Assembly (NCBI GenBank): GCA_030628575.1
Contig: DAOVQR010000001.1
Location: 1 to 17,610, forward strand
DNA length: 17,610 nucleotides
Direction of reading: 5' to 3'
Origin: a bacterium
GTDB lineage: Bacteria; Patescibacteriota; UBA1384; JAMDBS01; DAOVQR01
Shown: piece after piece, positions 605-14,417 of the stretch
How the letters are laid out: every line of letters begins with the position of its first letter
How positions within the stretch are numbered: the first letter of the stretch is position 1
Translations under genes and position numbers: made by a program
Notes under the pieces: generated by a model
Told to the model about the DNA's origin: nothing
Databases searched by the model: none
Seen by the model: the letters and a program-made list of their open reading frames with translations, nothing else

Positions 605-678
605 TAAGAATCTATCTCGATTCTCTAATTTATATTATAGCATAAAATTACCCACAAGTCAAATTCAATAGATTCTTA
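605..678. other. 11-bp perfect inverted repeat flanking the acidic-gene promoter
   Basis: TAAGAATCTAT at 605-615 and its exact reverse complement at 668-678 bracket the promoter at 634-662. The right arm overlaps the stop codon of the Hsp20-fusion gene. It could be a paired operator, or an RNA hairpin at the end of the upstream transcript. Confidence 0.45.
634..662 (-). promoter_or_regulatory. Strong sigma70-type promoter for the acidic-protein gene
   Basis: Reading the minus strand, -35 TTGACT (657-662), a 17-bp spacer ending in TGC (an extended -10), then -10 TATAAT (634-639). The predicted start of transcription is about 50 nt before the ATG at 575. Confidence 0.75.
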
Positions 679-1245
679 TTTTTTAACTTTAATTTTAAGT
701 TTTTTAGCTTTTTTGACTTCAGTTTTTGGTAAAGTAATTTTCAATATTCCGTCTTTAGCTTCTGCTTCAACTTTATCACTTTTAACCTTCACTGGTAAAG
801 GTATAACCCGAGAAAAACTACCATAACTTACTTCTTTTCGATAAAAATTCTTATCTTTATCCTCCTTTTCTTCTTTTTGCTCTCCTGAAAGTGATACATA
901 ATTGTCAGCCACTTCAATATCAACATTTTCTATCTTGATTCCCGGTAATTGTGCTTCCACAATAACATTTTTCTCTTTTTCATAAACATTTACCGAAGGT
1001 GTTCTGATTGCTCTTCGTGTTAACTCTATAGGCATTAAAAAATCTTCATCAAAGAAAATTTCTTCAATTGATTTTTCAAATAAACTTGACATTTCAAGTG
1101 CTAAATTGAGCGATGGCAATGATTTACCCTGCTCTAATGCAATTAATGCCTGACGTGAAATACCAAGTTTCTCCGCCAATTCCTCCTGAGTTAATTCCTG
1201 CTTCTGGCGTAAATTCTTTAGATGACAGTGAATAATATACTTCAT
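676..1245 (-). CDS. XRE-type HTH / Hsp20 (alpha-crystallin) fusion protein
   Basis: This 189-aa protein joins two domains. Residues about 9-63 are a Cro/CI-type helix-turn-helix (LTQEELAEKLGISRQALIALEQG), with the recognition helix near 29-38. Residues about 83-174 are a small heat-shock alpha-crystallin domain: PSVNVYEKEKNVIVEAQLPG at its start, GSFSR at 142-146 and the closing GILKITLPK at 166-174. The C-terminus is Lys-rich (KKAKKLKIKVKK) and the usual IxI/V tail motif is not obvious. Ordinary bacterial Hsp20 proteins are about 140-150 aa and lack the HTH. By family knowledge the crystallin part would bind unfolded protein and the HTH part DNA. The promoter at 1295-1323 contains an operator-like palindrome, so autoregulation by the fused HTH, perhaps relieved by unfolded protein, is a reasonable inference. 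The ATG has only a weak GGA upstream. Confidence 0.93.
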   Translation of the reverse strand: MKYIIHCHLKNLRQKQELTQEELAEKLGISRQALIALEQGKSLPSLNLALEMSSLFEKSIEEIFFDEDFLMPIELTRRAIRTPSVNVYEKEKNVIVEAQLPGIKIENVDIEVADNYVSLSGEQKEEKEDKDKNFYRKEVSYGSFSRVIPLPVKVKSDKVEAEAKDGILKITLPKTEVKKAKKLKIKVKK

Positions 1246-1294: not shown

Positions 1295-1323
1295 ATTGTA
1301 AAGTAAACTTTACATTCTGTCAA
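1295..1323 (-). promoter_or_regulatory. Consensus promoter of the HTH-Hsp20 gene
   Basis: On the minus strand -35 TTGACA (1318-1323), a 17-bp spacer and -10 TACAAT (1295-1300). The expected transcription start is near 1288, leaving a 5' UTR of about 43 nt. The rRNA terminator ends just upstream at 1332, so this gene is insulated from the rRNA operon. Confidence 0.8.
1297..1314. promoter_or_regulatory. Operator-like inverted repeat inside the promoter
   Basis: TGTAAAG (1297-1303), a 4-bp centre, then CTTTACA (1308-1314). It fills most of the spacer and overlaps the -10 hexamer. A protein bound here would block RNA polymerase, and the HTH domain of the adjacent gene is the obvious candidate. 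Confidence 0.6.
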
Positions 1324-1331
1324 GAGAATAC

Positions 1332-1361
1332 AAAAAATCTCCCTTTTACGGGAGATTTTTT
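1332..1361 (-). terminator. Intrinsic terminator of the 23S-5S operon
   Basis: A near-symmetrical hairpin with AAAAAATCTCCC and GGGAGATTTTTT arms around a 6-nt loop, ending in a T run on the minus strand, starting about 10 nt after 5S. It would also work for plus-strand transcripts. Confidence 0.85.
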
Positions 1362-1369
1362 GATATAAA

Positions 1370-1484
1370 CCGGCAGTGACCTACTCTCACACCCCACTAT
1401 GAGGGCATTACCATCGGCGCTGAAGGGCTTAACTTCCGTGTTCGGGATGGAAACGGGTGTAACACCTTCGCTAAAACCACCAGA
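1370..1484 (-). rRNA. rrf: 5S ribosomal RNA
   Basis: About 115 nt. Conserved 5S segments are visible on the minus strand: CATCCCGAACACGGAAGTTA, the GCGCCGATGGTA stretch and GAGAGTAGGTCACTGCCGG. The 5' CTGGTGGT and 3' ACTGCCGG ends pair to form helix I. It is the last gene of the rRNA operon, about 200 nt after 23S, and is followed at once by a terminator. Exact ends are uncertain by one or two nt. Confidence 0.95.
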
Positions 1485-1486
1485 TG

Positions 1487-1515
1487 AATAGATATTAAAA
1501 AATTTAATATCTATT
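1487..1515 (-). other. 13-bp perfect hairpin just upstream of 5S
   Basis: AATAGATATTAAA (1487-1499) pairs perfectly with 1503-1515 across a 3-nt loop, adjoining the 5' end of 5S. It is probably a processing signal in the 23S-5S spacer. Confidence 0.5.
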
Positions 1516-1574
1516 GCATCCAAGGGTTTTATCCAATAATTTTCAGTATTTGGATTTTGGAATTTAACATTTGC

Positions 1575-1638
1575 CCTTCGATTTTACTCAGGGCATCCTG
1601 AGCCTATCGAAGGATGGAATTTTCCGCCTATCGGCGGA
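1575..1638. repeat. Extragenic palindromes in the 23S-5S spacer
   Basis: Two adjacent hairpins. The first (1575-1613) has CCTTCGAT...CTCAGG facing CCTGAG...TCGAAGG around a GCAT loop. The second (1623-1638) is TCCGCC-TATC-GGCGGA. The word TGAGCCTATCGAAGG recurs nearly unchanged inside the 23S gene near 3742-3758, so it behaves as a dispersed REP-like repeat. Confidence 0.5.
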
Positions 1639-1647
1639 TTTAGTATC

Positions 1648-1663
1648 TTTGTGGTTATCTCGA
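1648..1663 (-). other. 23S processing stem, 3' arm
   Basis: TTTGTGGTTATCTCGA is the exact reverse complement of 6022-6037, upstream of the 23S gene. Further pairing (TTATCA/TGATAA, ATAAGAA/TTCTTAT) continues towards the mature ends. This is the usual long stem cut by RNase III to release pre-23S, and it shows 23S is processed as its own precursor. Confidence 0.75.
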
Positions 1664-2099
1664 AATTACATAAGAACAAAATTATCAAATATGACTAATT
1701 AGTACTCCTTGGCTAAATCCCTTGCGGGACTTACACCTAGAGCCTATCAACCCACTGGTCTAGTGGGGGTCTAAGAATTCTTATCTTGGGGACGGCTTCG
1801 CGCTTATATGCTTTCAGCGCTTATCCAAACTAGACATAGCTACCGAGCACTGCCCTTGGTAGGACAACTCGTACACCAGAGGTCTATCCTTCTCGGTCCT
1901 CTCGTACTAGAGAAGGGTCACCCTCAAAATTCAACGCCTATAGCAGATTAGGACCGAACTGTCTCGCGACGTTCTGAACCCAGCTCGCGTACCGTTTTAA
2001 TTGGCGAACAGCCAAACCCTTGGGAGGTACTTCCCCCCCAGGATACGATGAGCCGACATCGAGGTGCCGAACCTGGCCGTCTATGTGGGCTATTGGGCC

Positions 2100-2141
<42 letters not shown>

Positions 2142-2390
2142 GGTCCGTCTGTCATTCAATCGGACCGGATCACTAAAACCTGCTTTCGCATCTGCTCGGC
2201 TTGTAGGCCTCGCAGTTAAGCACACTTATGCTTTTGCACTATCATCCCGATTTCCATCCGGGATTAGTGTACCTTTGTACGACTCCGTTACTTTTTTGGA
2301 GTCGACCGCCCCAGTCAAACTACCTGCCAGACACTGTCCCCCATAGGGGTTAGAATTCAAAATCACAAAGGGTGGTGTCACATTGTTGAA

Positions 2391-2542
2391 CCGCACACAG
2401 CACGGAAGTATCAATTTACAATTTTTAATTTACAATCAATTTACAATTTTTAATTTTCAAATCAATTAATCTGAAAATTTATTATATTGAAAATTCAATG
2501 AAAATTGAGAATTGATCATTGAAAATTCCGTGCTATGCACGG
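2391..2542 (-). repeat. 23S insertion 1 (about H79)
   Basis: AT-rich insertion in the helix following the conserved GTAGGTGGGAG. It is bounded by GC-rich mini-hairpins: CCGTGC-TAT-GCACGG at 2528-2542 and CCGCAC...GCACGG at 2391-2405. Its inner part shares a long word, beginning AATTCAATGAAAATTGAGAA, with the insertion at 3833-3962. Confidence 0.8.
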
Positions 2543-2701
2543 TTCTCCCACCTACTCTTTACATTATAATCTTAAATCCAATATCAAGTTGTAGTAAAGC
2601 TCCACGGGGTCTTTCCGTCTTGCTATAGGTAACCGGCATCTTTACCGGTAGTGTAATTTCACCGAGCTCCTCTCAGAGACAGTAGCCAGACCGTTATGCC
2701 A

Positions 2702-2740
<39 letters not shown>

Positions 2741-3032
2741 CAAATTAACAACGTTTTGTTTTATTGATATCTACGACTTTCGATATCCCTAATATCGCTA
2801 TTAGGATCAGACTATATCTTCTCACCTCTTCGGTGAGTTTGGCGTATAGTCGTTGAGGATCCCTCGTTAAATGAGGTTTCCTGCTGATTATCTGCACCAC
2901 ACAGATTTTTACCATAAAGGTACTGGTGGATACTCAGATTTTCCAGCATATAGCCAAATTTTTGTTCTACATCCCCGATGGCATACCGGGGTTCAAACAG
3001 AGGTTTGAATACCTCACTATGGCAGCTTTCCT
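2741..3032 (-). other. Group I intron in 23S rRNA at L1931, no ORF
   Basis: 292 nt. The upstream exon ends in CTATGGT, which pairs fully with intron GCCATAG near its 5' end, giving P1 with the required U.G wobble at the splice site. The intron ends in G. The R element CTCAACGACTATACG is at 2843-2857 and the S element AAGATATAGTC at 2810-2820, so GACTA/TAGTC forms P7. P2 (CCCCG/CGGGG), P8 (CTCACC/GGTGAG), P9 (CCTAATA/TATTAGG) and a following GATATC/GATATC stem are visible. The exon junction corresponds to E. coli U1931/A1932, a site known for bacterial group I introns. There is no room for a homing endonuclease. It should self-splice as RNA; subtype not assigned. Confidence 0.93.
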
Positions 3033-3097
3033 ACCATAGAACGATTATAGTTATCGCTGCCGTTCACTAGGGCTTAAGTTCAAACCTCGCCGTTACG

Positions 3098-3267
3098 TAG
3101 CAGCGGAAATTCCAAATCCTAAATTCCAAATCCTAAATAAATTATAAATACAAAATTCCAATTTTCAAAACGCTTTTAATATCCATTTTGAATTTTGGTC
3201 ATTTGAAATTTGAATTTGTTTAGAAATTAGAAATTAGAAATTAGAAATTCCCGATGCTACGCATCGG
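3098..3267 (-). repeat. 23S insertion 2 (about H68), twin of the 5524-5700 copy
   Basis: About 168 nt, roughly 96% identical by eye to the insertion at 5524-5700, including the end hairpin CCGATGC-TAC-GCATCGG (3251-3267) and an (AAATTAG)n run. The two halves are imperfect inverted repeats, so the element can fold into one long AT-rich hairpin. It replaces the loop of the helix before the conserved AGCCCTAGTGAACGGC. Confidence 0.85.
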
Positions 3268-3386
3268 TTCAGCTCTCCCTGTAACCTTCTAGCACTGGGC
3301 AGGCATCAGCCCCTATACTTCCCCAAATGGGTTTGCAGAGACCTATGTTTTTGGTAAACAGTCGCCTGGCAAACGTTCGCTGCGGC

Positions 3387-3561
3387 CTCGCGCAAAGCGC
3401 GAGAAAATCCGAATATCAAATCTCGAAATCCGAAACAAATTCTAATTTTCAAATGATCTAAATTAAAAAAACATATATTCTTTTATTTTGAACATTCGAA
3501 TTTTGATATTGTTTCGAGATTCGTATTTCTTATTCCGAATTTCCTTGTGCTTCGCACAAGG
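3387..3561 (-). repeat. 23S insertion 3 (about H63)
   Basis: Bounded by CTCGCGC-AAA-GCGCGAG (3387-3403) and CCTTGTGC-TTC-GCACAAGG (3543-3561). Inside are inverted AT-rich arms with GAAATCCGAAACAAATTC and GATATTGTTTCGAGATTCG, shared with the insertion at 4996-5163. H63 is a classically variable helix. Confidence 0.8.
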
Positions 3562-3832
3562 CAGACCTTATCCCTAAGTTACGATCGCTTTTTTGCCGAG
3601 TTCCTTTGAGAGGATTCTCTCGATCACCTGAGGCTTCTCGCCTCGTCCACCTGCGTCGGTTTACGGTACGGTTTACAAAGACAATTGACTTTATCCTTTT
3701 CTTGTCTCCAACTCCCCCAGTATAAAATAACCATAGTTTATACTGAGCTTATCGAAGCGTCAGATAAAGGTAAATCTTTGCAAGTGCAGGAATATCAACC
3801 TGCTGTCCATCGCCAGTGCTTTGATTACAAAT

Positions 3833-3962
3833 CACTGAAAATTTCAATTTTTAATTTTACAATTTACAATCAATTTACAATTTATCAATCTTCAAACAAT
3901 TTGAAAATTAAATCATTGGAAATTCAATGAAAATTGAGAATTGATCATTGAAAATTTTTTAT
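3833..3962 (-). repeat. 23S insertion 4 (about H54)
   Basis: AT-rich insertion between the conserved GTTAATCGTCCCGG region and CAGGTTGATATTCCTGCA. It shares the GAAATTCAATGAAAATTGAG and GATCATTGAAAATT words with insertion 1, making a second sub-family. Its end hairpins are less clear than in the other copies. Confidence 0.75.
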
Positions 3963-4683
3963 TGTGTCCTGTAAACAAGGCACTGGCTTAGGACCGACTA
4001 ACCCCGGGACGATTAACGTTGCCCGGGAAACCTTGGACATGCGGTGGGCAGATTTCTCGTCTGCCTAATTCGTTACTCATGCCAACATTCTCGCTTCTGT
4101 ACCATCCACCCAATCTCACGATTGAGATTCAACTAATACAGAACGCTCCTCTACCAGTCCGTCGAAGACGGACTTCGTGTCTTCGGTACTTAACTTGAGC
4201 CCCGTTAAATTTTCGGTGCAACAAACCTAGACTAGTGAGCTGTTACGCTTTCTTTAAAGGAATGGCTGCTTCTAAGCCAACCTCCTAGTTGTTTTAGATC
4301 CATCACATCCTTTACCACTTAGCTAAGATTTAGGGACCTTAGACGACGATCTGGGATGTTTCCCTCTTGCGCCATGAAGCTTATCCCTCACGCACTGACT
4401 CTTATACTTAAAGTTTTGGTATTCGGAGTTTGATTGGATATGACGACCGAAGTCGCCAAAAACCATCCAGTGCTCTACCTCCAAAACGTGAATATAAGGC
4501 TATACCTAAATATATTTCGAGGAGAACCAGCTATTTCCGAGTTCGATTAGTATTTCACCACTATCCACAGTTCATCTCCCCCATTTGCGACTGAGGTGAG
4601 TTCGGGCCTCCCCTCGATTTTACTCGAGGTTCACCCTGACCATGGATAGATCACTCGGTTTCGGGTCTAGTAAATACTGCAAT

Positions 4684-4829
4684 CGCGCTACGCGCTCAAA
4701 CTCAAAAATTAAAACTCAAAGTTTAAAAATATTGTATTCGCTTCGCTCATAATTTATATAATAAATCACGAAGTGATACCTTAATTTTGCATTTTACACT
4801 TTGCATTTTGAATTTAAGTGCGAAGCACG
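4684..4829 (-). repeat. 23S insertion 5 (near E. coli position 650)
   Basis: Bounded by CGCG-CTA-CGCG (4684-4694) and GTGC-GAA-GCAC (4818-4828), with further GAAGCG and CACTTCGTG mini-hairpins inside. AT-rich and different in sequence from the other copies. It sits just before the conserved AGACCCGAAACC segment (minus strand). Confidence 0.75.
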
Positions 4830-4995
4830 ATATACGCCCTATTAAGACTTGCTTTCGCTATGCCTCCCCCAGCACTCTTTCCCGAATTGTAACACGAATG
4901 AATAATTCGATGTGGAATAATTCGAGAAAAAGTGCTGGGTTAGACTGCAATATTTAACTAACTCGTTGGCTCATTCTACAAAAGGCACGCCGTCA

Positions 4996-5163
4996 CTGCG
5001 CACAGCATCGAAAATTCGAAATCCTAAATTCGAAATACGAAACAAATTCTAATTTTCTAAATTCTAATTTTCAAAAATAATATGTTTTGATCATTTAAAT
5101 TTTGATATTTGATATTGTTTCGAGTTTCGATATTCGTGCTTCGGATTTTCGTGCTACGCACAG
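4996..5163 (-). repeat. 23S insertion 6 (H25)
   Basis: Lies between CAAGGAGTCGGAGC and GTGACGGCGTGCCTTTTGTA, the H25 position where Salmonella 23S carries its intervening sequence. Inverted ends CGAAAATTCGAA and TTCGGATTTTCG, with a GTGC-TAC-GCAC hairpin at 5151-5161. Related to insertion 3 in its inner arms. Confidence 0.8.
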
Positions 5164-5215
5164 CTCCGACTCCTTGTAAGCATATAGTTTCAGGTTCTAT
5201 TTCACTCCCCGCGCC

Positions 5216-5262
<47 letters not shown>

Positions 5263-5523
5263 AATAGAGTATTTAGTCTTGGATGATGATCCACCCGTCT
5301 TCCTACTGGGTTTCACGTGCCCAGTATTACTTAATCCCGCACCCTTGAATCGAAGTATTCAATTCAAAAGTGCGGGATGATTATCTAATAGAAAATAAAT
5401 TTTTCATTTACGGGGCTTTCACCCTCTCTGGCGGTCCTTTCCAGGTTCCTTCAATTAAATTTATTCTCGTTTGATAATCTAGACTTTTCCACGTTCGCTC
5501 GCCGCTACTAGCGGAATCACAAC

Positions 5524-5700
5524 CGCTGCATAGCAGCGGAAATTCCAAACTCTAAATTCTAAATCCTAAATAAATTATAAATACAAAATTCCAATTTTCA
5601 AAATGTTTTTAATATCCATTTTGAATTTTGGTCATTTGAAATTTGAATTTGTTTAGAAATTAGAAATTAGAAATTAGAAATTCCCGATGCTACGCATCGG
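5524..5700 (-). repeat. 23S insertion 7 (about H13), twin of the 3098-3267 copy
   Basis: Bounded by CCGCTGC-ATA-GCAGCGG (5524-5540) and CCGATGC-TAC-GCATCGG (5684-5700). The interior matches insertion 2 with only about seven differences, while the flanking rRNA is unrelated, so the two copies must have moved or been copied recently. The interior folds as a long AT-rich hairpin. Confidence 0.85.
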
Positions 5701-6021
5701 TATTTTGTTTTCTTTTCCACGGCTTACTTAGATGTTTCAGTTCAGCCGGTTCCCAATTAGCAGCCAGAATATCAGATACCAAAATTCTAAAAAACCATTA
5801 AGTCCCTAAATTAACGGACCGGTTAAGATTTTGATATCTGATAACTGACTACTAATCATCTACTTCTTCAGTAGATAGGTTTCCCCATTCGGAAATCCCC
5901 GGATCAAAGCTTGTTAGACAGCTCCCCGAGGCTTATCGCAGCCTACTACGTCCTTCATCGGCTCTATCTGCCAAGGCATCCACCATATGCTCTTAATATG
6001 ATAAGTTTATTCTTATCAAGA

Positions 6022-6037
6022 TCGAGATAACCACAAA
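6022..6037 (-). other. 23S processing stem, 5' arm
   Basis: TCGAGATAACCACAAA is exactly complementary to 1648-1663 downstream of 23S. See that entry for the pairing. Confidence 0.75.
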
Positions 6038-6050
6038 AACACTAAATTAT

Positions 6051-6118
6051 CCACTAATTTTGAAAACGCTATTTACACTAATAATTATTAGTGTAAATTC
6101 GTGATAATAAATTAGTGG
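6051..6118. other. Nested palindromes in the 23S leader
   Basis: Outer arms CCACTAATTT (6051-6060) and AAATTAGTGG (6109-6118) enclose a perfect 28-nt palindrome at 6071-6098 centred on TAATTA. It could be an RNA hairpin in the leader or a protein-binding site. It lies between a possible second promoter and the processing stem. Confidence 0.65.
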
Positions 6119-6127
6119 AAGTTATAC

Positions 6128-6153
6128 ATTATATTTTTGCTCGGTTTATTCAA
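6128..6153 (-). promoter_or_regulatory. Possible second promoter of the 23S-5S operon
   Basis: TATAAT (6128-6133) on the minus strand with TTGAAT upstream (6148-6153). The 14-bp spacer is too short for a good sigma70 site. It is proposed because the stronger promoter upstream is separated from 23S by a terminator. Confidence 0.3.
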
Positions 6154-6172
6154 TTTTTAAGGTACTAAGTGA

Positions 6173-6198
6173 TAAAAAAACCGCTTCAGTTAAGCGGC
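6173..6198 (-). terminator. Intrinsic terminator between the leader promoter and 23S
   Basis: CCGCTT-(5 nt)-AAGCGG hairpin followed by seven T on the minus strand. An alternative stem, GTTTAAG...CTTAAC, shares the left arm and could compete with it, so this may be an attenuator and not a simple stop. Confidence 0.8.
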
Positions 6199-6233
6199 AC
6201 TTAAACAAATGCTATCAAATTATTAGCAATTGA

Positions 6234-6275
6234 TTATGCCACTTCCCCCTTTCTTGATTGTTGAACTTTACTCAT
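6234..6275 (-). CDS. Putative 13-residue leader peptide
   Basis: ATG at 6275 with a GGAG Shine-Dalgarno sequence 8 nt upstream, encoding MSKVQQSRKGEVA and then TAA. It sits between the consensus promoter (6295-6322) and the terminator (6173-6198), filling a predicted transcript of about 115 nt. Either it is a true leader peptide or mini-gene, or the transcript is a small RNA and the ORF is chance. I know of no family for this peptide. Confidence 0.35.
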   Translation of the reverse strand: MSKVQQSRKGEVA

Positions 6276-6294
6276 ATTTTTATCTCCAAGTGTG

Positions 6295-6322
6295 ATTATA
6301 TCAAAGCCATTTTTTCTGTCAA
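6295..6322 (-). promoter_or_regulatory. Perfect sigma70 consensus promoter upstream of 23S
   Basis: TTGACA (6317-6322), 16-bp spacer, TATAAT (6295-6300) on the minus strand. The -35 box overlaps the TGA stop codon of the upstream gene. It is the best promoter in the window and the likely rRNA promoter, with transcription starting near 6288. Confidence 0.8.
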
Positions 6323-7695
6323 GTCCCGATCCTATGATTATTTACTTTATCTTGAGCTACATCAAGCATGGTTGGCGTAACTTTTTGTTTTTCTATAATA
6401 GGTATCTGTTCTTTTACTTGTCTTGGTTTTAAGATAATATCTTCAGCAATCACCTTTTGTTTTACTACAATCATTGGTTCACTTTTATATCTTTCATATC
6501 CTTGCTTTGATGCAGTCGTATAATAATCACCTTGATTAATCATAAATCTAAACCTTCCCTTGGCATTTGAAACTTTTGTGGAAACTAATTTATTATTAGT
6601 ATCATTGAATACTCTTATGATAGCCAAATTAACAGGTGTATGAGTCATAAATTCAAATATATTACCAAATGCCTTGCTTTTGCTGATTAATCCATAAATC
6701 TCCCAAATCCAAATAAGTGAGTAAAAGCTGATTATAATAATATCAATTGTCCGATGATATACAACCACAAATGCAATAGAAATTAATGTTCCGATAACTA
6801 AAAGCGGAATTCTGATTACAGCCAAAAAATCAGTGATTTTTGATAGAATATTAAGTCGATGCTCTAGTACTTTTTTATTTGAATCTAATGGAATATCAAC
6901 AATTATCGGCTGGTCTTTTTTAAGTTCTAAAATTTGACCATGATAATCTTTACTAACCGCTTTTGAGGGAAAAGCAAAATCTTTTTTAACAACCTGAATA
7001 TAATATTTACCCGGACCAACTAAAAATCCGAACCTGCCTTTATTGTCAGTTAATTCTGTCTTGAGAAGTTTATTAAATTCCTTTTCAAATAATCTAACTG
7101 CCACCAAGGAAATTCCCTGGCCTGTTTCAGAATCATATACTTTTCCCCATGGTTTTTTTCTCTTGCTAAATAATGGAATAAACCAAGCAATCATACTGGA
7201 TATTGGGGAAGCCATTGGTAAATTCATAATTATTGGTACTAATGTCGCCCAAACTACTAAGGATGCCACCACTGCAGCTATTGGTAACTTCATTGTCTGA
7301 GCTATTGGATTATCTGTTATTGATTTTAAAAAATCTATAATTTTATCAATGATGTTCCCAATTATTCCCACTTCTCCCTCTTTAGGTAAAGTTGTAGGAG
7401 TAGAAGTCGGTTTAATTGTAGGTTGAACTGTTGAAGTTGCTGTTGGACTAGGAGAAATAACAGGTGTTACTGATTGAACAGGCATAATATCAGAATTACC
7501 AATTGAATCTACGATTTGATAATTTTCACTTGACGAAAAACCGCCGCCATAATCTATTAAACCTTCTGTTTGATAATTAGAAGAACTGGCAGCAAAAACA
7601 ATAATCGGTAATAAATTGATAATTATAAATAATAGCACAAACAAAGTGAACTTTATCCATTCAAAACAATTAGAGGTTTGACTATTATTTAGCAC
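6319..7695 (-). CDS. Secreted or anchored protein with two carboxypeptidase-regulatory-like domains
   Basis: 458 aa. Residues about 13-36 form a signal or anchor helix ending in VFAASSS. A short stretch follows with two copies of the NYQ...(D/G) pattern (NYQTEGLIDYGGG, ENYQIVDSIG). Residues 72-104 are a Pro/Thr/Ser linker. A hydrophobic helix lies at about 135-160. Residues 183-240 (WGKVYDSETGQGISLVAVRL...) and 342-400 (PVNLAIIRVFNDTNNKLVST...) resemble carboxypeptidase-D regulatory Ig-like beta-sandwich domains. Between them are two more membrane helices at about 290-335. The start is GTG, chosen because AGGAGG lies 6 nt upstream and no ATG fits. The function is unknown; a cell-envelope role is inferred from topology. 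Confidence 0.85.
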   Translation of the reverse strand: MLNNSQTSNCFEWIKFTLFVLLFIIINLLPIIVFAASSSNYQTEGLIDYGGGFSSSENYQIVDSIGNSDIMPVQSVTPVISPSPTATSTVQPTIKPTSTPTTLPKEGEVGIIGNIIDKIIDFLKSITDNPIAQTMKLPIAAVVASLVVWATLVPIIMNLPMASPISSMIAWFIPLFSKRKKPWGKVYDSETGQGISLVAVRLFEKEFNKLLKTELTDNKGRFGFLVGPGKYYIQVVKKDFAFPSKAVSKDYHGQILELKKDQPIIVDIPLDSNKKVLEHRLNILSKITDFLAVIRIPLLVIGTLISIAFVVVYHRTIDIIIISFYSLIWIWEIYGLISKSKAFGNIFEFMTHTPVNLAIIRVFNDTNNKLVSTKVSNAKGRFRFMINQGDYYTTASKQGYERYKSEPMIVVKQKVIAEDIILKPRQVKEQIPIIEKQKVTPTMLDVAQDKVNNHRIGT

Positions 7696-7955: not shown

Positions 7956-8176
7956 CAAATTCCAATTAAACTCATTTTACCTAAAATAATAAGTAATCCT
8001 ACCAACATACAGATCATACCTATTATTATCCACATATTATATGTCCCACCTAGCCCAAGGTATTTTTCTGCAATATCATTCTTACCAAATATTCTAACAA
8101 TTTTTTCTCGATAATAAATAGTTGCTATTCCAGCAACATTAAAAACTATAAACCAAATCAATCTATTAAAAAACAT
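7955..8176 (-). CDS. Small two-helix membrane protein
   Basis: 73 aa from the ATG at 8176, chosen over upstream starts because AGGAGG lies 7 nt before it. Hydrophobic helices at residues about 4-21 and 47-67 flank a charged stretch (YYREKIVRIFGKNDIAEKYLG) and the motif GGTYNMWIIIG. The start overlaps the end of the upstream gene by 19 nt, so the two are translationally coupled. I recognise no named family. The pairing suggests a partner or accessory of the YdjM-like protein. Confidence 0.75.
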   Translation of the reverse strand: MFFNRLIWFIVFNVAGIATIYYREKIVRIFGKNDIAEKYLGLGGTYNMWIIIGMICMLVGLLIILGKMSLIGI

Positions 8177-8622
8177 AAACAACCTCCTATGATCAAAACT
8201 TGAGTTATTACTCCCCAATACCAATATTTTGGTTTAATTTTATAATGCACAAAGGTATGAATTTTATGAATAAATCTACCGAATGATGTTTGCCTCATCC
8301 AACGTTTCCAAAACGGCACATTGTCAATTAAATCTACTAATACTGCAGAAAACGCTCCCAATACTATATATATATTATAATCCCATTTTGTCCAAACCCA
8401 AAATAATAATATTCCTGCAGTTGATACATCTGTAACTAGCAAAATGTAATCTTTTTTTTCAAGCTTAAAATTAGAGTCATAATTATGCCAAGTTCCCCAA
8501 TCAAAATGCGGAATGGCATCCAAAATAAAATGACTTAAAAAAGCCAGAATTATTATCAAAGAAACATTGTTGGTTGATGCTCCAATCGACGCACCAACTA
8601 AAGTATGAGGTGTTAATAACAT
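8158..8622 (-). CDS. YdjM-like integral membrane putative metal-dependent hydrolase
   Basis: 154 aa from the ATG at 8622 (MLLTPHTLVGASIGA), which matches how this family begins; a GTG at 8664 would add 14 residues, and neither start has a Shine-Dalgarno sequence. Several membrane helices alternate with polar motifs: PHTLVG, SHFILDAIPHFDWG, DLIDNVP and a His-rich FIHKIHTFVH stretch. The H...D...PHxD pattern is like that of YdjM/DUF457 membrane proteins, proposed to be metal-dependent hydrolases; the activity is not proven. It overlaps the next small membrane-protein gene. No promoter was found in the short gap after the defence-like operon, so read-through from that operon is possible. Confidence 0.75.
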   Translation of the reverse strand: MLLTPHTLVGASIGASTNNVSLIIILAFLSHFILDAIPHFDWGTWHNYDSNFKLEKKDYILLVTDVSTAGILLFWVWTKWDYNIYIVLGAFSAVLVDLIDNVPFWKRWMRQTSFGRFIHKIHTFVHYKIKPKYWYWGVITQVLIIGGCLCFLID

Positions 8623-8750
8623 AATAAAAAATTTCAGATTTCCAGTAAATGCAATTGCATTCACTCACAATTATATTTTTTTATAATTCAAGTTATTTCG
8701 CCCAATTTTTTTGCGGACGAGCTACAAAATCAAAAGGGTGGTGGGTGGAT

Positions 8751-9782
8751 TTAGAATGGAATGTCGGCAATGTCCACTTCTTCTTTTCTTGTATTTTGAT
8801 TTACTTCCTTTGCATTGTCAATTTTTAAAATACGCTTGGCTCGTTTCAAAACATGATCATAAGTCATTATCGTCAAATTATGATAACTTGAGTTTAAAAT
8901 ACGATATGCTTTTTTTTGGTCATCATTCCAATTACTTGAACAACCAAAAATCAAAATACAACGCGGTTTTATTGTTTTGACATTGCCGACTCTTTCCAAA
9001 AACTTAACACTGTTTGCTTCTCTTTCCACTTCGTAAATGTATTTTGTCGCTTGCATAATGGCTTTTGTCAAATCAGAGGACGGCACATAATTTCCGTGAT
9101 CTTGGCCATCGGTCCAAAATCTTAAACTGCCTTGCGGGCGTTTAATCTCAACAATATCAAGAAAACCGTCGTATGCCTGCATTAAATAATCAGTAATGTT
9201 TGCAGTGTCTATTTCTCGCTCGTCCAAAATCCTCACAAATTCGCTTCCCAATACCCAATCGTTGTGCTTAAACCATTCTTGCCATTTTTGCTCGACCAAA
9301 TCCTGGCCAAACATAATTTTAAATTCTTGAATCGCTTTTATGCGTGTCTGATTTTGTAATCCAGCAACAAGATCATCGGAAAGAATATTGTTTTTTGCAA
9401 TAAAGTCCAAAACTTCCTGCTTGTCGGGATTATCAAAAATTGCTTTTAAGTGTTCGATACTTTTTCGGTCAAATTTTTCATCAATAGGGATATACTTTTT
9501 AACTCCTTTCTTGAATGGTTCGTAGTTTTCTAATAAAAACTCAAGCAATTTTTGAAATTCTTCATTATCCAAAGTAAGTTCACTTTTTGGATTTTCAACT
9601 TCAAGGGTTTCTGGGGCAAAACCAGTTTTATTATATCTGCCAATTTTTAAACAAATATCCTCTTGTTGTGAATTTTCGTGCCGAATTTTCCAAAAAATTG
9701 CACGCGTAATAGTTTTTGCCTTCTCTTTGAGAAGCCCAACTAAATACTCAATACCTTTTTGTGTTGTTTTGATTGTTGCCAT
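8751..9782 (-). CDS. sduA: Shedu-type (DUF4263) nuclease
   Basis: 343 aa. The C-terminal half matches the Shedu/DUF4263 nuclease. WQEWFKHNDWVLGSEF (about 167-182) precedes the PD-(D/E)xK-like core: D198 in TDYLMQ, D205-x3-D209, and VEIKRP with E212 and K214, followed by AIMQATKYIYEVE (Q244, Y248). The N-terminal 150 residues form the family's variable domain, probably the sensor. Shedu is known as a single-protein anti-phage system that cuts DNA; homologues oligomerise. Here it is the last gene of a unit, 19 nt after the TSPPY methyltransferase, which raises the possibility that methylation protects the host or gates the nuclease. The ATG is the first in frame, with no strong Shine-Dalgarno sequence. 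The family call is by motif and the pairing with methyltransferases is inference. Confidence 0.88.
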   Translation of the reverse strand: MATIKTTQKGIEYLVGLLKEKAKTITRAIFWKIRHENSQQEDICLKIGRYNKTGFAPETLEVENPKSELTLDNEEFQKLLEFLLENYEPFKKGVKKYIPIDEKFDRKSIEHLKAIFDNPDKQEVLDFIAKNNILSDDLVAGLQNQTRIKAIQEFKIMFGQDLVEQKWQEWFKHNDWVLGSEFVRILDEREIDTANITDYLMQAYDGFLDIVEIKRPQGSLRFWTDGQDHGNYVPSSDLTKAIMQATKYIYEVEREANSVKFLERVGNVKTIKPRCILIFGCSSNWNDDQKKAYRILNSSYHNLTIMTYDHVLKRAKRILKIDNAKEVNQNTRKEEVDIADIPF

Positions 9783-9801
9783 AAAATTATTCCTTCCACA
9801 C

Positions 9802-10644
9802 TCAAGATTTCCTAAAATTCAAAATATACTGATGATGATGATTCATTTTGTAAGCATAAGGGTAGCCAAATGGATAAAGCGGTTTATTGTCTTGAACAAG
9901 CACAACCATACCTTCAAAACCAAACCCTATATCTTGCATAAGCCGTATAACATCACCACTTGCGTTTGTCTCTTTTTTGTTTACAGTAAAATCGCTGATT
10001 ATAATTGAGCAGTATTTTTTATCTCGCAATTTTTTATATACCCCTGCCATAACCGCTTTCAACAATTTCAGAAAATCTTTATACTGCGCTTGATTACCTA
10101 AATCTCGTTTATCGTCTGAGTAATATTCAACACCGAGACGTGCGCCATTTCGCACATCCTTATCTTTCATTTCTCTTAATCCTCCACCATTATGTCTCAA
10201 AATATTATGATACGGCGGCGAAGTCACGCAATAATCAAGCTTTCCCTTAATTTGAGATATTTTTTTGAGAGAATCACCACAAACAACTTGTTGATTCTTT
10301 TTCAACTTTAAATCTTGTAAACGCTTTCGACTCATTTGACAATATTTTTTACTTAAATCTATTCCGATTCCTTTTCTATTCTCTTGCGCACTTGCGAGTA
10401 AGGTTGTCCCTGAACCGCAAAACGGATCAAGCACTATCATATTCTTTTTAGTAAAAAATCTAATCAGTTTTTTAATATCATTGATTAAAAAAGGAGCCGG
10501 ATGTTGAAACGCAAACTTATCATCAACGCATTTCTCACTTACCCAAACGCTTTTGGTCAATAATAACCACTCTCTACCAGTTAAATCGTTAATAGTATTA
10601 CGTTTGTCGTATTTTGCTTTTTTTTGGGGCTTCTTTTTTATCAT
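9802..10644 (-). CDS. DNA methyltransferase, TSPPY type (probable N4-cytosine)
   Basis: 280 aa. Motif X-like HPAPFLINDIKKLIRFFT (48-65) leads directly into AdoMet motif I VLDPFCGSGTT (71-81). GIDLS (94-98) is the acidic motif II, and catalytic motif IV is TSPPY (141-145). SPPY is typical of N4-cytosine enzymes, although some N6-adenine enzymes have it too. Motif I comes before IV, and the region after IV (about 150-210) would hold target recognition. It begins 4 nt after the stop of the 820-aa methyltransferase and ends 19 nt before the Shedu gene, so all three are probably made together. Key residues are intact. The target sequence cannot be predicted. Confidence 0.9.
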   Translation of the reverse strand: MIKKKPQKKAKYDKRNTINDLTGREWLLLTKSVWVSEKCVDDKFAFQHPAPFLINDIKKLIRFFTKKNMIVLDPFCGSGTTLLASAQENRKGIGIDLSKKYCQMSRKRLQDLKLKKNQQVVCGDSLKKISQIKGKLDYCVTSPPYHNILRHNGGGLREMKDKDVRNGARLGVEYYSDDKRDLGNQAQYKDFLKLLKAVMAGVYKKLRDKKYCSIIISDFTVNKKETNASGDVIRLMQDIGFGFEGMVVLVQDNKPLYPFGYPYAYKMNHHHQYILNFRKS

Positions 10645-10648
10645 AAAT

Positions 10649-13111
10649 TTACCTCAAGTTAGACAAATCTTTATGTTTAAGTGTTTTATCACTTTTATGC
10701 AAATTATAAAAATCTTTCAGTGCATCATAATGGATAGTTTGCCATTTATATTTATTATAACCTTCTTGAAACATAGGCTCATTCATTTTTCTCTCAAGCA
10801 TTTTTTGTCTTTCTTCTGGAATAACGATAAATCTTTTTGCATCGTATTCCTCTGGAATATGGGAAGCTCTTTCTATTGCAGATGTAATGCTTGTACTATT
10901 TTCAACTTCAAAAACATATTTAATAGAAGAATCGTCATACCAAAGAACATCTATCATTGCGATTCTGCGAAGTTCATCACCAGAAAATCCGGAAAGTTTT
11001 AGATTCGGCACAGTACAATATTTTGAAAGTTTTTCATTTCTAAAAGTATCGCCCTGCTCTTTACTTCCAACCCAAATTTTATAGCCCGCCTTTTTTCCGA
11101 TCTCGGACAAGTAACAAATCATTTCGCTGTGTTCTGAATCTCTATAATTTACTTCTGGTCTATACCGCCAGCGACCGTCACCAGTCGTTGTCGCATATTC
11201 CTTCAATACCTCTATAACACCCTTTGTGTCGGGCGTTAGTCCGTTTGGAAAAGTAATAAATAATTTCTGTAAAATTTCATCAAAAGTAACTTTGATATTC
11301 CCACGCAACATATCAAGCACCACCCTTTCAATCCTATCTGATAAAGGTACTCGTTTGAAAAGCATATCCTCTGGATTTTTTAACCACCATTTAGGCCCAA
11401 GTTTCCCCTCCTTATTCTCAATAAGAACAAATACCTTTTCGATGTTTTCTTTAAGAATATTTACAATGTCGTCGTGGCTACCCTCAAAAAATCTTCCTGT
11501 TGAAAATAACTCTGTATAAATTCCATTCAAAATAAAAGTCATTTCTGTTGGTTCACCCCTTAATGCAATAATATCTTTAGCAGCTTTAACAACAATTCTT
11601 TCATATTCTTCTTTGCCCATTTTTTGATGATCAGACACACCCGCTTTTTCAGGTTTCTTAAATCGCAAATAATAATCGCTTATTGCGCTACCGTAAGGCA
11701 TGGCAACTCCTGCCTCCGAAGCTCGTTTGTTTGGCTGATATAAAATCTTTTCAAAAACAAAACCTGAATACGCCCCAGCTTTAATAACGGAGTTCCAAAC
11801 ATTAATTTCTCTGTTGTGAAAAGTCAAAGTTAAATAGTGCCCGGGCTTTAAAACCTTATAAATTTCGCGTAATGCTTTAGTGAGAAGATTGTGGTATCGC
11901 TCAAAGTCCTTTTTGTGTTCAATGGTTATCTCATCTTCATAAGAAATTTCAAATTTTTTGTTACTGTGCTTTAGCCAGATTGCCCAAAGACTGCTCAAAC
12001 TAAAGTATTGGATTAGTCCGCCATAGGGCGGATCTGTTATAACATAATCAATGCTATTTTCAGGAATTCTCTTTGATAAGTCCAAAGCATCAATCGTTAA
12101 AATAAGTAAATTTTTATCTTTCTTGTCATCGGTTAATTCTTGAAAGTCTTTTGCTATATTCACCTTATTCGCAAGCAATTTTTCAGATGATTTCTTCGCT
12201 TTTATAAGACCTTGTCTATCCTCAACCGCTCTTTGAAACAAAATGACTGGATTTTGTTCCATATGCCTTTTTGGCAGAATAAATGCCGGTCTTCCCCAAC
12301 TTCCAGAATCGGGTCTTTTGCTTTTTGTTCTTCTTGCCGAAACCATAATTGAGGCAAGGTGAATCATTGAAATAAAGGCAAATTTCAAAAAGTCTTTTAT
12401 TTCTTCATCGTCAACATCTTCAATTTCTTTATACAAAAAAGAAATTAAGTAAAGCGTTCTTTCTGTCCAAAGTTTATAATATTGATTTCCAATTCCCTTG
12501 CGTACAGATTTGAAAAAATTTGTTTTTGGAAATTCATCTTCCGGATACCAATAGAGAATTTTTAAGTTTTCTGATTTTTTGATAATTTGTTTATCAAAAT
12601 CATCTGGCTCTTTACCTTGATTACTTTTAGTGCAAGAACATTTGTATCTTATAAGTATCGGGTTTCTGCCGTCCCAATGAACACCGATAACTCTGGCTTC
12701 GTTTTCGCATTTTTTGCATTTCGTAACAAAAACGCCAATCTCTTTTTCTTTCTTTATTAATTTTTCCAGTATTTTTGTATAGTGTTTTCCAAACTTTGAA
12801 TAATCGAGCGGTTTAGCAACCATCTTAATCATAAAAGTAGAAATGGGGTTGAGATCTATCGCAACAGCTTTTCTATTTATTTGTATTGCTTCCAACGGGG
12901 CAATACCGCTTCCTGCAAAAGCGTCTAGCACAATTTCATTTTCTTTTGTGTAATTCTCTATGTATTTGCGAAAAATATTGTGCGGTTTTTTGCCCCAATA
13001 TTTTAACGCTTTATACATCATCGGACGCGTACATTCAACTAAAGCATAATTGATATGCTTCATATTCTGGAAGGGATTAGTTATTGAAATTTTATTTTCT
13101 TTTTTTGACAT
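10649..13111 (-). CDS. Zn-ribbon DNA methyltransferase (COG1743-like) with nuclease-like C-terminal domain
   Basis: 820 aa. Residues 25-60 (ECTRPMMYKALKYWGKKPHN...) resemble the start of COG1743 adenine-specific methylases, followed by motif I VLDAFAGSGIAPLEA (61-75) and acidic AIDLNP (84-89). A Cys cluster, C132-x2-C135 with C158-x-C160, suggests a Zn ribbon inserted in the catalytic fold. Motif IV is DPPYGG (360-365), giving a probable N6-adenine (or N4-cytosine) methylase. After about residue 490 the protein continues with a separate C-terminal part. Residues 655-790 carry E663, IDVLW (D721) and FEVENS (E735-x-E737), arranged like a PD-(D/E)xK nuclease but with Glu where Lys is expected. 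The gene starts 4 nt after the RadC-like ORF and runs into the second methyltransferase gene. The C-terminal reading is inference. Confidence 0.88.
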   Translation of the reverse strand: MSKKENKISITNPFQNMKHINYALVECTRPMMYKALKYWGKKPHNIFRKYIENYTKENEIVLDAFAGSGIAPLEAIQINRKAVAIDLNPISTFMIKMVAKPLDYSKFGKHYTKILEKLIKKEKEIGVFVTKCKKCENEARVIGVHWDGRNPILIRYKCSCTKSNQGKEPDDFDKQIIKKSENLKILYWYPEDEFPKTNFFKSVRKGIGNQYYKLWTERTLYLISFLYKEIEDVDDEEIKDFLKFAFISMIHLASIMVSARRTKSKRPDSGSWGRPAFILPKRHMEQNPVILFQRAVEDRQGLIKAKKSSEKLLANKVNIAKDFQELTDDKKDKNLLILTIDALDLSKRIPENSIDYVITDPPYGGLIQYFSLSSLWAIWLKHSNKKFEISYEDEITIEHKKDFERYHNLLTKALREIYKVLKPGHYLTLTFHNREINVWNSVIKAGAYSGFVFEKILYQPNKRASEAGVAMPYGSAISDYYLRFKKPEKAGVSDHQKMGKEEYERIVVKAAKDIIALRGEPTEMTFILNGIYTELFSTGRFFEGSHDDIVNILKENIEKVFVLIENKEGKLGPKWWLKNPEDMLFKRVPLSDRIERVVLDMLRGNIKVTFDEILQKLFITFPNGLTPDTKGVIEVLKEYATTTGDGRWRYRPEVNYRDSEHSEMICYLSEIGKKAGYKIWVGSKEQGDTFRNEKLSKYCTVPNLKLSGFSGDELRRIAMIDVLWYDDSSIKYVFEVENSTSITSAIERASHIPEEYDAKRFIVIPEERQKMLERKMNEPMFQEGYNKYKWQTIHYDALKDFYNLHKSDKTLKHKDLSNLR

Positions 13112-13115
13112 AATT

Positions 13116-13406
13116 TTATGTAAAATAAATCCGTTTTGCTATTTCAAATGCTGTAGCAATTCTGATAATTTTTGCTTCTTTTATCCCTTTAATTTTCATA
13201 AACTCGTCTAAACGACGACCAGCTAACCCCTTCAGATTTTTATATTCATTCAGTAAATCATCAGCCATTTCCAGGGCAGACTTTCCTTTTAAGCCATGTC
13301 CGATTAAAATCGCCAAAAGCTCTTTATCGGACAATGACTCCGGTCCAAATTTTAGCAACTTTTCCCTAGGCCTTTGTTCTTTTGGTAAATCTTTTATTTT
13401 TGGCAT
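13116..13406 (-). CDS. RadC N-terminal (HhH) domain protein, lacking the JAB domain
   Basis: 96 aa from the ATG at 13406. MPKIKDLPKEQRPREKLLKFG is the usual beginning of RadC (UPF0758) proteins, followed by SDKELLAILIGHGLKGKSA and a helix-hairpin-helix-like KIKGIKEAKIIRIATAFEIAKR. Normal RadC continues with a JAB1/MPN metalloprotease-like domain of about 120 residues, which is absent: the frame stops here and the next gene begins 4 nt later. An upstream in-frame ATG at 13496 would add 30 residues unlike RadC. The stand-alone HhH domain could bind DNA for the methyltransferases encoded next. It may equally be the remains of a RadC gene truncated when the module inserted. Confidence 0.82.
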   Translation of the reverse strand: MPKIKDLPKEQRPREKLLKFGPESLSDKELLAILIGHGLKGKSALEMADDLLNEYKNLKGLAGRRLDEFMKIKGIKEAKIIRIATAFEIAKRIYFT

Positions 13407-13481
13407 AATTTTATTTTTTATTAAATCCTCAATTAAAACTCTGAGTACTTTAGTTAATTCAACACAAAGGATTTTAATAAC

Positions 13482-13507
13482 ATTCATCAAATTCATTCAT
13501 CAAATTC
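13482..13507. repeat. 13-bp direct repeat in the RadC-methyltransferase leader
   Basis: ATTCATCAAATTC occurs twice head to tail, about 30-50 nt downstream of the predicted transcription start. It may be a tandem operator or a chance duplication. Confidence 0.5.
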
Positions 13508-13541
13508 ATTCTGGTGGTATATTGTAAATGAAGTTAGAACT

Positions 13542-13570
13542 ATTATACAAAATTATAAAGGATATATCAA
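13542..13570 (-). promoter_or_regulatory. Promoter of the RadC/methyltransferase/Shedu operon
   Basis: On the minus strand TTGATA (13565-13570), 17-bp spacer, TATAAT (13542-13547). Transcription would begin near 13535 and run through four closely spaced genes. Confidence 0.7.
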
Positions 13571-13587
13571 CATTCCAAAATGAATCA

Positions 13588-13609
13588 CCCTGTGGCAGAG
13601 ACCACAGGG
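13588..13609. other. Perfect GC-rich 8-bp hairpin upstream of the defence-like operon
   Basis: CCCTGTGG-(6 nt)-CCACAGGG, striking in AT-rich surroundings. It lacks a T run on either strand, so it is not a classical terminator. It sits 18 nt upstream of the -35 box. Confidence 0.5.
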
Positions 13610-13713
13610 AATAACAAGTTTAACATAGTCTATATCCTTACTATAGGCCAACATTAGACTAAATAAAAATCATGAATTGAATTGATTGTGTTTGAATCGT
13701 AAAATATCACTAA

Positions 13714-13739
13714 ACAAAAAACACCTTAAATCAGATGTT
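13714..13739 (-). terminator. Probable terminator of the GIY-YIG gene
   Basis: AACATC/GGTGTT stem (one U.G pair) with the stop codon in its loop, followed by a T run on the minus strand. Confidence 0.5.
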
Positions 13740-13962
13740 TATTCCTAAAAGCTTTGCCCGATGAAGATTTAAGATATTTTTCAAATTTTAATGCTAACTG
13801 TTTATTTTTAAAAGCAGTATACCAAACCAAATATACCGGTCTAAACTTTGATGTATATAAAACTGCTCCCGTTTGATGTTTATCTAATCTTAATTTTATA
13901 TTTTTGGTCGAACCAGTATAATAATCGTCATTCGATAATTGTAATAAATAAGTAAAATACAT
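13726..13962 (-). CDS. GIY-YIG domain protein, UvrC/UPF0213-like
   Basis: 78 aa from the ATG at 13962 (MYFTYLLQLSNDDYYTGSTKN), preferred over the ATG at 13971 because the family starts this way; neither has a clear Shine-Dalgarno sequence. YFTYLL stands in for GIY and YYTGST for YIG. The Arg in LRLDKH, the K/Y-rich middle and E64 (numbered from 13971) in FEKYLKSSSGKAFRNK fit the single-domain GIY-YIG nuclease fold (UPF0213/YhbQ-like). Such small proteins are common in Patescibacteria; their job is mostly unknown, with DNA cutting or repair the best guess. It lies between tRNA-Ala and the defence-like operon, with a probable terminator of its own. Confidence 0.88.
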   Translation of the reverse strand: MYFTYLLQLSNDDYYTGSTKNIKLRLDKHQTGAVLYTSKFRPVYLVWYTAFKNKQLALKFEKYLKSSSGKAFRNKHLI

Positions 13963-13981
13963 ATTTATCATGACTCTAAAT

Positions 13982-14100
13982 GTCCAACTTCGCTAATAAG
14001 CTACGCTGGACAAACTTCTTAATATCTTAAGTGGCTCGCCAAGCAAAGTTTTAATTTATAATGGTTTGGTTCGCCAAGCGAAGCCACAATTTATTGTGGC
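13982..14100. repeat. Cluster of small hairpins between GIY-YIG and tRNA-Ala
   Basis: Repeated CGCCAAGC(G/A)AAG words and inverted arms: GTCCA/TGGAC (13982-14011), GTGGC (14031-14035) with GCCAC (14083-14087), and GCCACAAT-TT-ATTGTGGC (14083-14100). The GC-rich mini-hairpins resemble those bounding the 23S insertions. Confidence 0.5.
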
Positions 14101-14106
14101 GAAGTT

Positions 14107-14182
14107 TGGTGGACCCGACAGGACTCGAACCTGCCACCTCCTCCGTGCAAGGGAGGCGCTCTACCAGATGAGCTACGGGCCC
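14107..14182 (-). tRNA. tRNA-Ala (TGC)
   Basis: 76 nt including an encoded CCA. The acceptor GGGCCCG pairs with CGGGTCC and shows the G3-U70 wobble, the identity mark for alanyl-tRNA synthetase. Anticodon stem CCTCC/GGAGG, loop CTTGCAC, anticodon TGC. The T arm GGCAGGTTCGAGTCCTGTC is canonical. With tRNA-Ile it forms the pair usually found in the 16S-23S spacer, but here 23S lies about 8 kb downstream. Confidence 0.98.
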
Positions 14183-14189
14183 TCTTCAT

Positions 14190-14337
14190 AAATACCAAAT
14201 CACAAGCATCAAATTACAAACAAATTTCAATAACCTAAATTTCAATAATCAAAACGGTTTAGAATTTTGAAAATTGGATATTGGAAATTATTTGGAATTT
14301 GTAATTTGACATTTGTAATTTCTCAAGCTTTGCTTGA
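14190..14337. repeat. AT-rich hairpin element between the two tRNAs
   Basis: Two imperfectly complementary halves centred near 14255, with CTCAAG-CTTTG-CTTGAG (14322-14338) at one end. Same architecture and vocabulary as the 23S insertions. Confidence 0.6.
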
Positions 14338-14340
14338 GTA

Positions 14341-14417
14341 TGGTGGGCGATGGAGGATTTGAACCTCCGACCTCGTCATTATCAGTGACGCGCTCTAACC
14401 AACTGAGCTAATCGCCC
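14341..14417 (-). tRNA. tRNA-Ile (GAT)
   Basis: 77 nt including an encoded CCA. The acceptor GGGCGAT/ATCGCCC is perfectly paired. Anticodon stem CGTCA/TGACG, loop CTGATAA, anticodon GAT. D arm TAGCTCAGTTGGTTAGAGC and T arm GGAGGTTCAAATCCTCC are canonical. It has its own promoter directly upstream. Confidence 0.98.

Follow-up and report, generated by a model that had tools for sequence, protein, structure and literature searches.

A probable Type II restriction-modification cassette with a predicted bifunctional enzyme and an exchangeable last gene, here Shedu, in a Patescibacteriota contig

The described systems closest to the module considered here are the Type IIG/IIC restriction-modification (RM) systems, with which it shares a methylase and a nuclease (in the module, a predicted one) in a single chain and a separate second methylase, and Shedu (SduA, DUF4263), elsewhere regarded as a one-gene system. 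The module lies in a 17,610-nt stretch (the window) of contig DAOVQR010000001.1, assembly GCA_030628575.1, from a bacterium assigned to Patescibacteriota; the contig (C77) belongs to an 823-kb genome bin of 145 contigs that is 68% complete. On the minus strand, read 5' to 3', a promoter-like site is followed by RadC-N, M820 (820 aa), M280 (280 aa) and Shedu, separated by 4, 4 and 19 nt; open reading frame (ORF) coordinates together with Pfam and PADLOC domains agree in genes, strand, order and gaps with a preliminary description of this DNA. The arrangement is probably a transferable Type II RM cassette to which an exchangeable, perhaps end-acting nuclease has been added, with M820 being bifunctional and Shedu dispensable for restriction. 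The parts are ordinary and their assembly is unusual; the module is real and conserved.

Compared with Type IIG/IIC systems, the predicted nuclease of the module is C-terminal, behind a winged helix, and carries a D..E-x-E motif, and the module adds a near-constant RadC-N and an appended, exchangeable Shedu, OLD or ATPase gene. A small helix-turn-helix (HTH) gene upstream, a further likeness to these systems, is found in some relatives (L008, L009, L010, L013), and the layout is one we take to be Eco57I-like. The Shedu of the window resembles known Shedu proteins in its SduA_C domain, D-x2-E-x-K core and PADLOC model (PDLC00385), and differs in that its gene follows an RM core in an operon-like arrangement. 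For EcSduA, the accessible part of PMC12904381 describes end sensing, nicking at a fixed distance, end-dependent cleavage and phage defence, as well as toxicity upon heterologous expression and diverse N-terminal domains among Shedu proteins; in view of this diversity and toxicity, the window Shedu may sense something other than ends. Shedu has also been linked to BREX as an auxiliary effector (accessible part of PMC12839542), and a Type I RM genomic island is reported for a metagenome-assembled genome of Patescibacteria (likewise PMC12455944). Neither the gene set nor the cassette ends were found described in the literature on Shedu, paired methyltransferases, RadC with RM, and defence in the Candidate Phyla Radiation/Patescibacteria, most subscription journals lying outside the search.

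M820 (10649..13111, minus strand) is a DNA methyltransferase with an N6_N4_Mtase domain, followed by a winged helix and a predicted nuclease domain, as assigned from Pfam, PADLOC and alignment A1. The methylase portion contains DAFAGSG at residues 63-69 (12905..12925), which we take to be motif I, a zinc-ribbon region with C132, C135, C158 and C160 (12632..12718), the first three of these cysteines being invariant in A1, and the presumed motif IV, TDPPYGG, at residues 359-365 (12017..12037). The C-terminal region, about residues 585-820 (10652..11359), had been overlooked in the preliminary description. It consists of a winged helix and then a predicted FokI/N.BspD6I-like nuclease fold with the predicted active site D721-x13-E735-V-E737 (10901..10951), whose three acidic residues are invariant in 35/35 sequences, with identity to the window in this region as low as 31%. 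Compared with solved structures, the C-terminus gave no match as a single sequence and matched only designed chains (sc-apCC-4) as a profile; a search with the full-length model returned methyltransferases and other proteins, with no restriction nuclease among the matches listed. The D..E-x-E motif is also kept in mostly archaeal homologues of about 40-44% identity (L014-L020, L022-L029, L038, L042, L043, L068), none of which has an M280 partner in the DNA fetched.

The C-terminus might alternatively be a dead nuclease serving DNA recognition only, in a pair that is methylation-only or BREX-like. The predicted active-site motif lacks a lysine, and the best PADLOC match of M820 is PglX/PglXI (176 bits), a likeness to BREX; but such a reading is very improbable, given that the D, E and E persist throughout the alignment at low identity and that Pfam detects no BREX partner of PglZ/BrxC type among the nine ORFs scanned on this 17.6-kb contig. 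Since M820 ends in a predicted nuclease domain with an invariant D..E-x-E, Shedu probably does not replace the restriction enzyme, the role first proposed for it.

M280 (9802..10644, minus strand) is the second methyltransferase, identified by Pfam, PADLOC and alignment A2, with motif IV TSPPY at residues 141-145 (10210..10224), invariant in A2. An N6_N4_Mtase domain with conserved motifs is present in both M820 and M280, as in methylases of Type II RM systems, and the catalytic motifs TDPPY and TSPPY bear out the earlier view that two different methylases are encoded. Two distinct motifs would fit an asymmetric recognition site.

The core of the module recurs in other genomes. A scan of species genomes with a pattern from the M820 alignment (best 80 of 82 matches) gave 77 loci, of which nine are close cassettes, comprising the window, L008, L009, L010, L011, L012, L013, L039 and L081. 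The order RadC-N/M820/M280 is kept in seven of the nine under several phylum labels, the exceptions being L011, without RadC-N, and L081, whose contig starts within M280. Identities of RadC-N, M820 and M280 are 87-93% in L008, L009, L010, L013 and L039 and 59-65% in L012; the window M820 shares 85-90% identity with its counterparts in L008, L009, L010, L011, L013 and L039. The records of close cassettes are labelled Patescibacteria, Nomurabacteria, Zixibacteria, Omnitrophota, Nitrospinota and Margulisiibacteriota, and some of these assignments could stem from mis-binning of contigs. Of 379 genomes sampled from the phylum, the source genome alone contains M280 at E 1e-60 or better. This patchy spread, combined with high identity across distantly labelled records, suggests horizontal transfer of the cassette. 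In plasmid records, M820, M280 and Shedu have matches under 60% identity only, as does M280 in phage records; the best segments of related proteins in viral contigs are at most 56% (M280) and 48% (M820) identical, Shedu relatives are absent there, and no transposase or recombinase is found among the four module genes.

Shedu (SduA; 8751..9782, minus strand), read here as the accessory gene, is identified by Pfam (SduA_C/DUF4263, 2.9e-24, 86.5 bits against a cut-off of 27), by PADLOC (PDLC00385, 474 bits) and by a profile that matches the solved Shedu chains 8ps4 and 8ti9. Its PD-(D/E)xK core, D209-I-V-E212-I-K214 (9141..9158), contains D209, E212 and K214 invariant across the 13 sequences of alignment A3. 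By BLASTP, identity to the window Shedu is 70% for the protein of L108 (genome G497), 28% for that of L012 and 27% for that of L081. In species samples Shedu occurs in 6/286 and 2/285 genomes, at differing E-value limits: the close Shedu is confined to the source genome among the 286, and the 285 genomes sampled around G385 yield, at E 1e-30, G383 (the genome of L012) and G497, the latter at 71% identity.

The gene behind M280 varies among the close loci. The window has Shedu PDLC00385, whereas L009 and L081 carry Shedu PDLC00391 6 nt past the M280 stop (the L009 contig ending inside it) and L012 has a Shedu 358 nt downstream that scores 168 bits against PDLC00402 and 158 against PDLC00385. 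An OLD nuclease gene overlaps M280 in L039, and an AAA_15 ATPase, AriA/PtuA-like, follows it in L008. No gene is callable after M280 in L010 (754 nt of contig left), L011 or L013, where a 103-aa ORF is repeat sequence. The tally is Shedu in four of nine loci, an accessory nuclease or ATPase in six, and neither in three. With M820 proteins 87, 89 and 90% identical to that of the window, L009, L039 and L008 hold an other-clade Shedu, an OLD and an ATPase, respectively, which suggests recent exchange. The gene position after M280 is an exchangeable socket.

In the more distant long M820-M280 pairs (L030, L032, L033, L034, L035, L036, L041), a recognisable nuclease or ATPase is the third gene in 0/7. 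Three have no same-strand gene of at least 100 aa within 420 nt (769 nt of contig being left in L030), and the third gene elsewhere encodes DNA polymerase III alpha (L033), a YbaK-like protein (L034), tyrosyl-tRNA synthetase (L041) or a 315-aa protein with no match (L035). In the pairs with a short M820 (L045, L046, L086), a third gene of 524-530 aa follows M280 in 3/3. It is HNH-like, with a weak McrA match in L045 (E 5e-4) and L086 (E 0.005), which are mutually 54% identical, and is taken as HNH-like in L046 because the beginning of its sequence nearly equals that of L045. An AlwI-like identity for this third gene was dropped, as Pfam finds no AlwI in L045 and L086, which both have the HNH-like stretch. 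L061 and L090, with methylases apart or in a different order, were left out of the pair counts. The layout fits a rule by which a nuclease fused into M820 makes the third gene optional.

These loci bear directly on the original proposal, in which M820 and M280 modify one strand each and Shedu stands in for the restriction enzyme, cutting unmodified or wrongly modified sites. The tight 19-nt spacing behind one promoter-like site, the presence of Shedu in four of nine close loci and the HNH-like gene of the short-M820 loci, by which a nuclease can hold this position, are in its favour. Against it stand the conserved predicted nuclease domain of M820 itself, the lack of Shedu in five of nine close loci and in all seven distant long pairs, and the restriction of the HNH-like gene to loci where M820 is short. 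The replacement of the last gene by an other-clade Shedu, an OLD or an ATPase beside nearly identical M820 proteins also fits site specificity poorly. A related Shedu, moreover, is joined in G497 to an RM system with its own restriction enzyme, in the order HTH, R.Tsp45I (Pfam 1e-124), N6_N4 methylase, 197-aa protein, PDDEXK_5, Shedu and DUF4365, which counts against Shedu replacing such an enzyme. That operon is like the module in having an HTH gene (in G497), a restriction enzyme, a methylase and extra nucleases that include a related Shedu, but its RM enzymes are unrelated and its Shedu is flanked by the PDDEXK_5 and DUF4365 genes. Given the M820 nuclease domain and the Shedu-less pairs, Shedu as sole restriction enzyme is set aside as the leading explanation and appears quite unlikely.

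A different question is whether Shedu has any functional tie to the methylases, or is an independent defence gene in a shared defence island. Shedu and methylase relationships are discordant, the close Shedu is as rare as described above, and VcSduA next to GrwAB works independently (accessible part of PMC12137116). However, Shedu has the same direction as M280 and begins 6-19 nt behind it in three of four cases, the distance in L012 being 358 nt; the same place is taken by Shedus of three PADLOC models, and a common 3' element, described below, ends Shedu, OLD and AAA genes. Naive chance is negligible; at an assumed Shedu rate of 5%, three independent cases in nine loci give P ~0.008. An unlinked Shedu is thus unlikely, though less so than Shedu as the restriction enzyme. 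The preliminary description had held that adjacency would be chance if related clusters nearly always lacked Shedu or if phylogenies were unrelated and linkage did not recur. The first part has some force, with five of nine close clusters lacking Shedu, and so do the discordant relationships; but linkage does recur, and the presence of different Shedus at one slot argues for exchange rather than chance.

In the cassette reading favoured here, M820 would act as methylase, winged helix and PD-(D/E)xK-type nuclease in one chain. Methylation by M820 and its partner M280 would shield an asymmetric site on both strands, unmodified DNA would be cut by M820, and RadC-N would serve as a constant, small helix-hairpin-helix (HhH) DNA-binding helper. 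Shedu, not required for restriction, would fill the exchangeable last slot. Restriction cuts would create ends, and an end-sensing Shedu could then cut near them, so that repair of the invader is hindered. If this is true, Shedu gains a second context, no longer a lone nuclease but an exchangeable second step of restriction.

A 22-bp 3' element, TCCACCCACCACCCTTTTGATT (8728..8749, minus strand), lies 1 nt past the Shedu stop codon. Variants are located 9 nt past the ATPase of L008, 5 nt past the OLD of L145, 1 nt past a 114-aa ORF in L130 and about 55 nt past the AAA_13 gene of L128, in the source genome. With at most one mismatch, the element occurs once each in two of the 379 phylum genomes (window Shedu and L145 OLD), with 0 for the reversed control among the matches listed; searches allowing up to three differences did not detect it behind the last genes of L009, L012, L039 and L081, and viral contigs gave 0 matches to its pattern. 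L128 (G000:C25, 3863-9336) is a second cassette of the source genome, in which a pair of D12 methylases, the first truncated at the contig end, precedes an AlwI-type enzyme and an AAA_13 ATPase (PADLOC PDC-S06). L145 (G136, 1300-6990) reads HTH, methylase, DpnII-like enzyme, methylase and OLD, and a serine recombinase gene adjoins it.

A separate 5' element, represented by L013 4390-4470, occurs once each in ten of the 379 phylum genomes, and five copies are present in ten cassette-bearing or source genomes searched. An HTH gene follows in 14/15 genome copies (10/10 and 4/5), the sole exception being a copy in L013 that lies inverted immediately after M280. For the ten phylum copies, the cargo gene beyond the HTH gene is a methylase in seven, GmrSD_N in one, a type II restriction enzyme in one and unmatched in one; several cargo ORFs are clipped at the stretch end, including the unmatched one (L137), and the methylase of L141 stands behind a GIY-YIG-like ORF. 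The copy in G497 is followed by an HTH gene, a full-length RadC gene and two methylase genes. The window itself has neither the 5' element nor an HTH gene. The 5' element might serve regulation instead of recombination; an identification as integron attC was dropped, without a search, because of misfit to the core-site consensus. In a contig filed as viral (L156, 163-2875), ORFs that by eye look HTH-like, RadC-like and methylase-like come after the 5' element.

Inverted repeats surround some cassettes. L145 is enclosed by a perfect 226-bp repeat, L147 by a perfect repeat of at least 300 bp that begins at the contig end, and L013 by a 78-bp repeat (92%). Apart from L145 and L147, the ten phylum 5'-element loci, some clipped by contig ends, have no inverted repeat around the cassette, and none lies near the cassette ends in the window, where only AT-rich matches at least 1 kb outside occur, in both orientations. 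A perfect 141-bp end repeat of L008 (1-141 and 5560-5700) was rejected as a cassette-specific end, since similar 131-141-bp repeats bound other contigs of that genome with housekeeping-like genes (L124, with a HisRS-like ORF, and L125; by eye); 141 is also the k-mer in the contig name. The repeat, an intergenic palindrome dispersed in that genome (GGGCAAAAA..TTTTTGCCC), is found at the ends of several contigs.

On a wider scale, it is possible, if short of probable, that Patescibacteria and their neighbours have portable cassettes with common ends, consisting of a 5' element with HTH, a complete but varying RM core, a swappable end- or damage-acting last gene (Shedu, OLD or AAA ATPases) and a 3' element. 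The RM core would supply ends or damage, the last gene would finish the invader, either layer would be swappable, and serine recombinases might move the cassettes in trans. If the cassette reading is right, the shared 5' and 3' elements would provide a handle to find and delimit defence cassettes in small-genomed bacteria and would help to ask how such bacteria acquire and trade immunity genes.

RadC-N (13116..13406, minus strand) is a 96-aa HhH protein with UPF0758_N, the N-terminal HhH domain of the RadC family, as its sole domain (Pfam 1e-28). The start first listed, 13496, is corrected here: it is not conserved, and close relatives align only from Met31 (13406) onward. The JAB domain of RadC, for which a role in nucleic-acid processing by mobile elements is discussed (accessible part of PMC5512222), is absent from the window protein and present in the RadC of a cassette relative (L130, 398-1081). 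RadC-N may hold DNA via its HhH motif. L130 (G497:C8, 26-15067) comprises two tandem restriction cassettes, the first with HTH, full-length RadC, two methylases and two unmatched ORFs, and the second with HTH, Tsp45I, methylase, 197-aa protein, PDDEXK_5, Shedu and DUF4365. A further Shedu stands beside a serine-recombinase-like ORF at L109 (G380:C11, 6082-8788, minus strand), in the same genome as cassette L009.

Upstream of RadC-N is a sigma-70-like promoter, TTGATA-17-TATAAT (13542..13570, minus strand), with 11/12 matches as a pattern match alone. However, the region 8400-14100 taken together is no richer in such sites than its shuffles, with 22 against a mean of 23.3. The cassette sits between tRNA-Ile/tRNA-Ala (14417-14107) and the 23S gene (window 8158-14417). 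Among 14 fetched loci of relatives, the 168-aa gene (window 8664-8158) has a tRNA-Ala(TGC) within ~1 kb in 13 and a tRNA-Ile nearby in 10, which indicates that this rRNA-linked region was remodelled, perhaps by the insertion. The 23S rRNA gene (1678-6006, minus strand) stretches over 4.3 kb and holds one group I intron at 2788-3042, a length that makes further insertions likely. At 676-1245 (minus strand), a single ORF combines an N-terminal Xre-type HTH with an Hsp20 small heat-shock domain.
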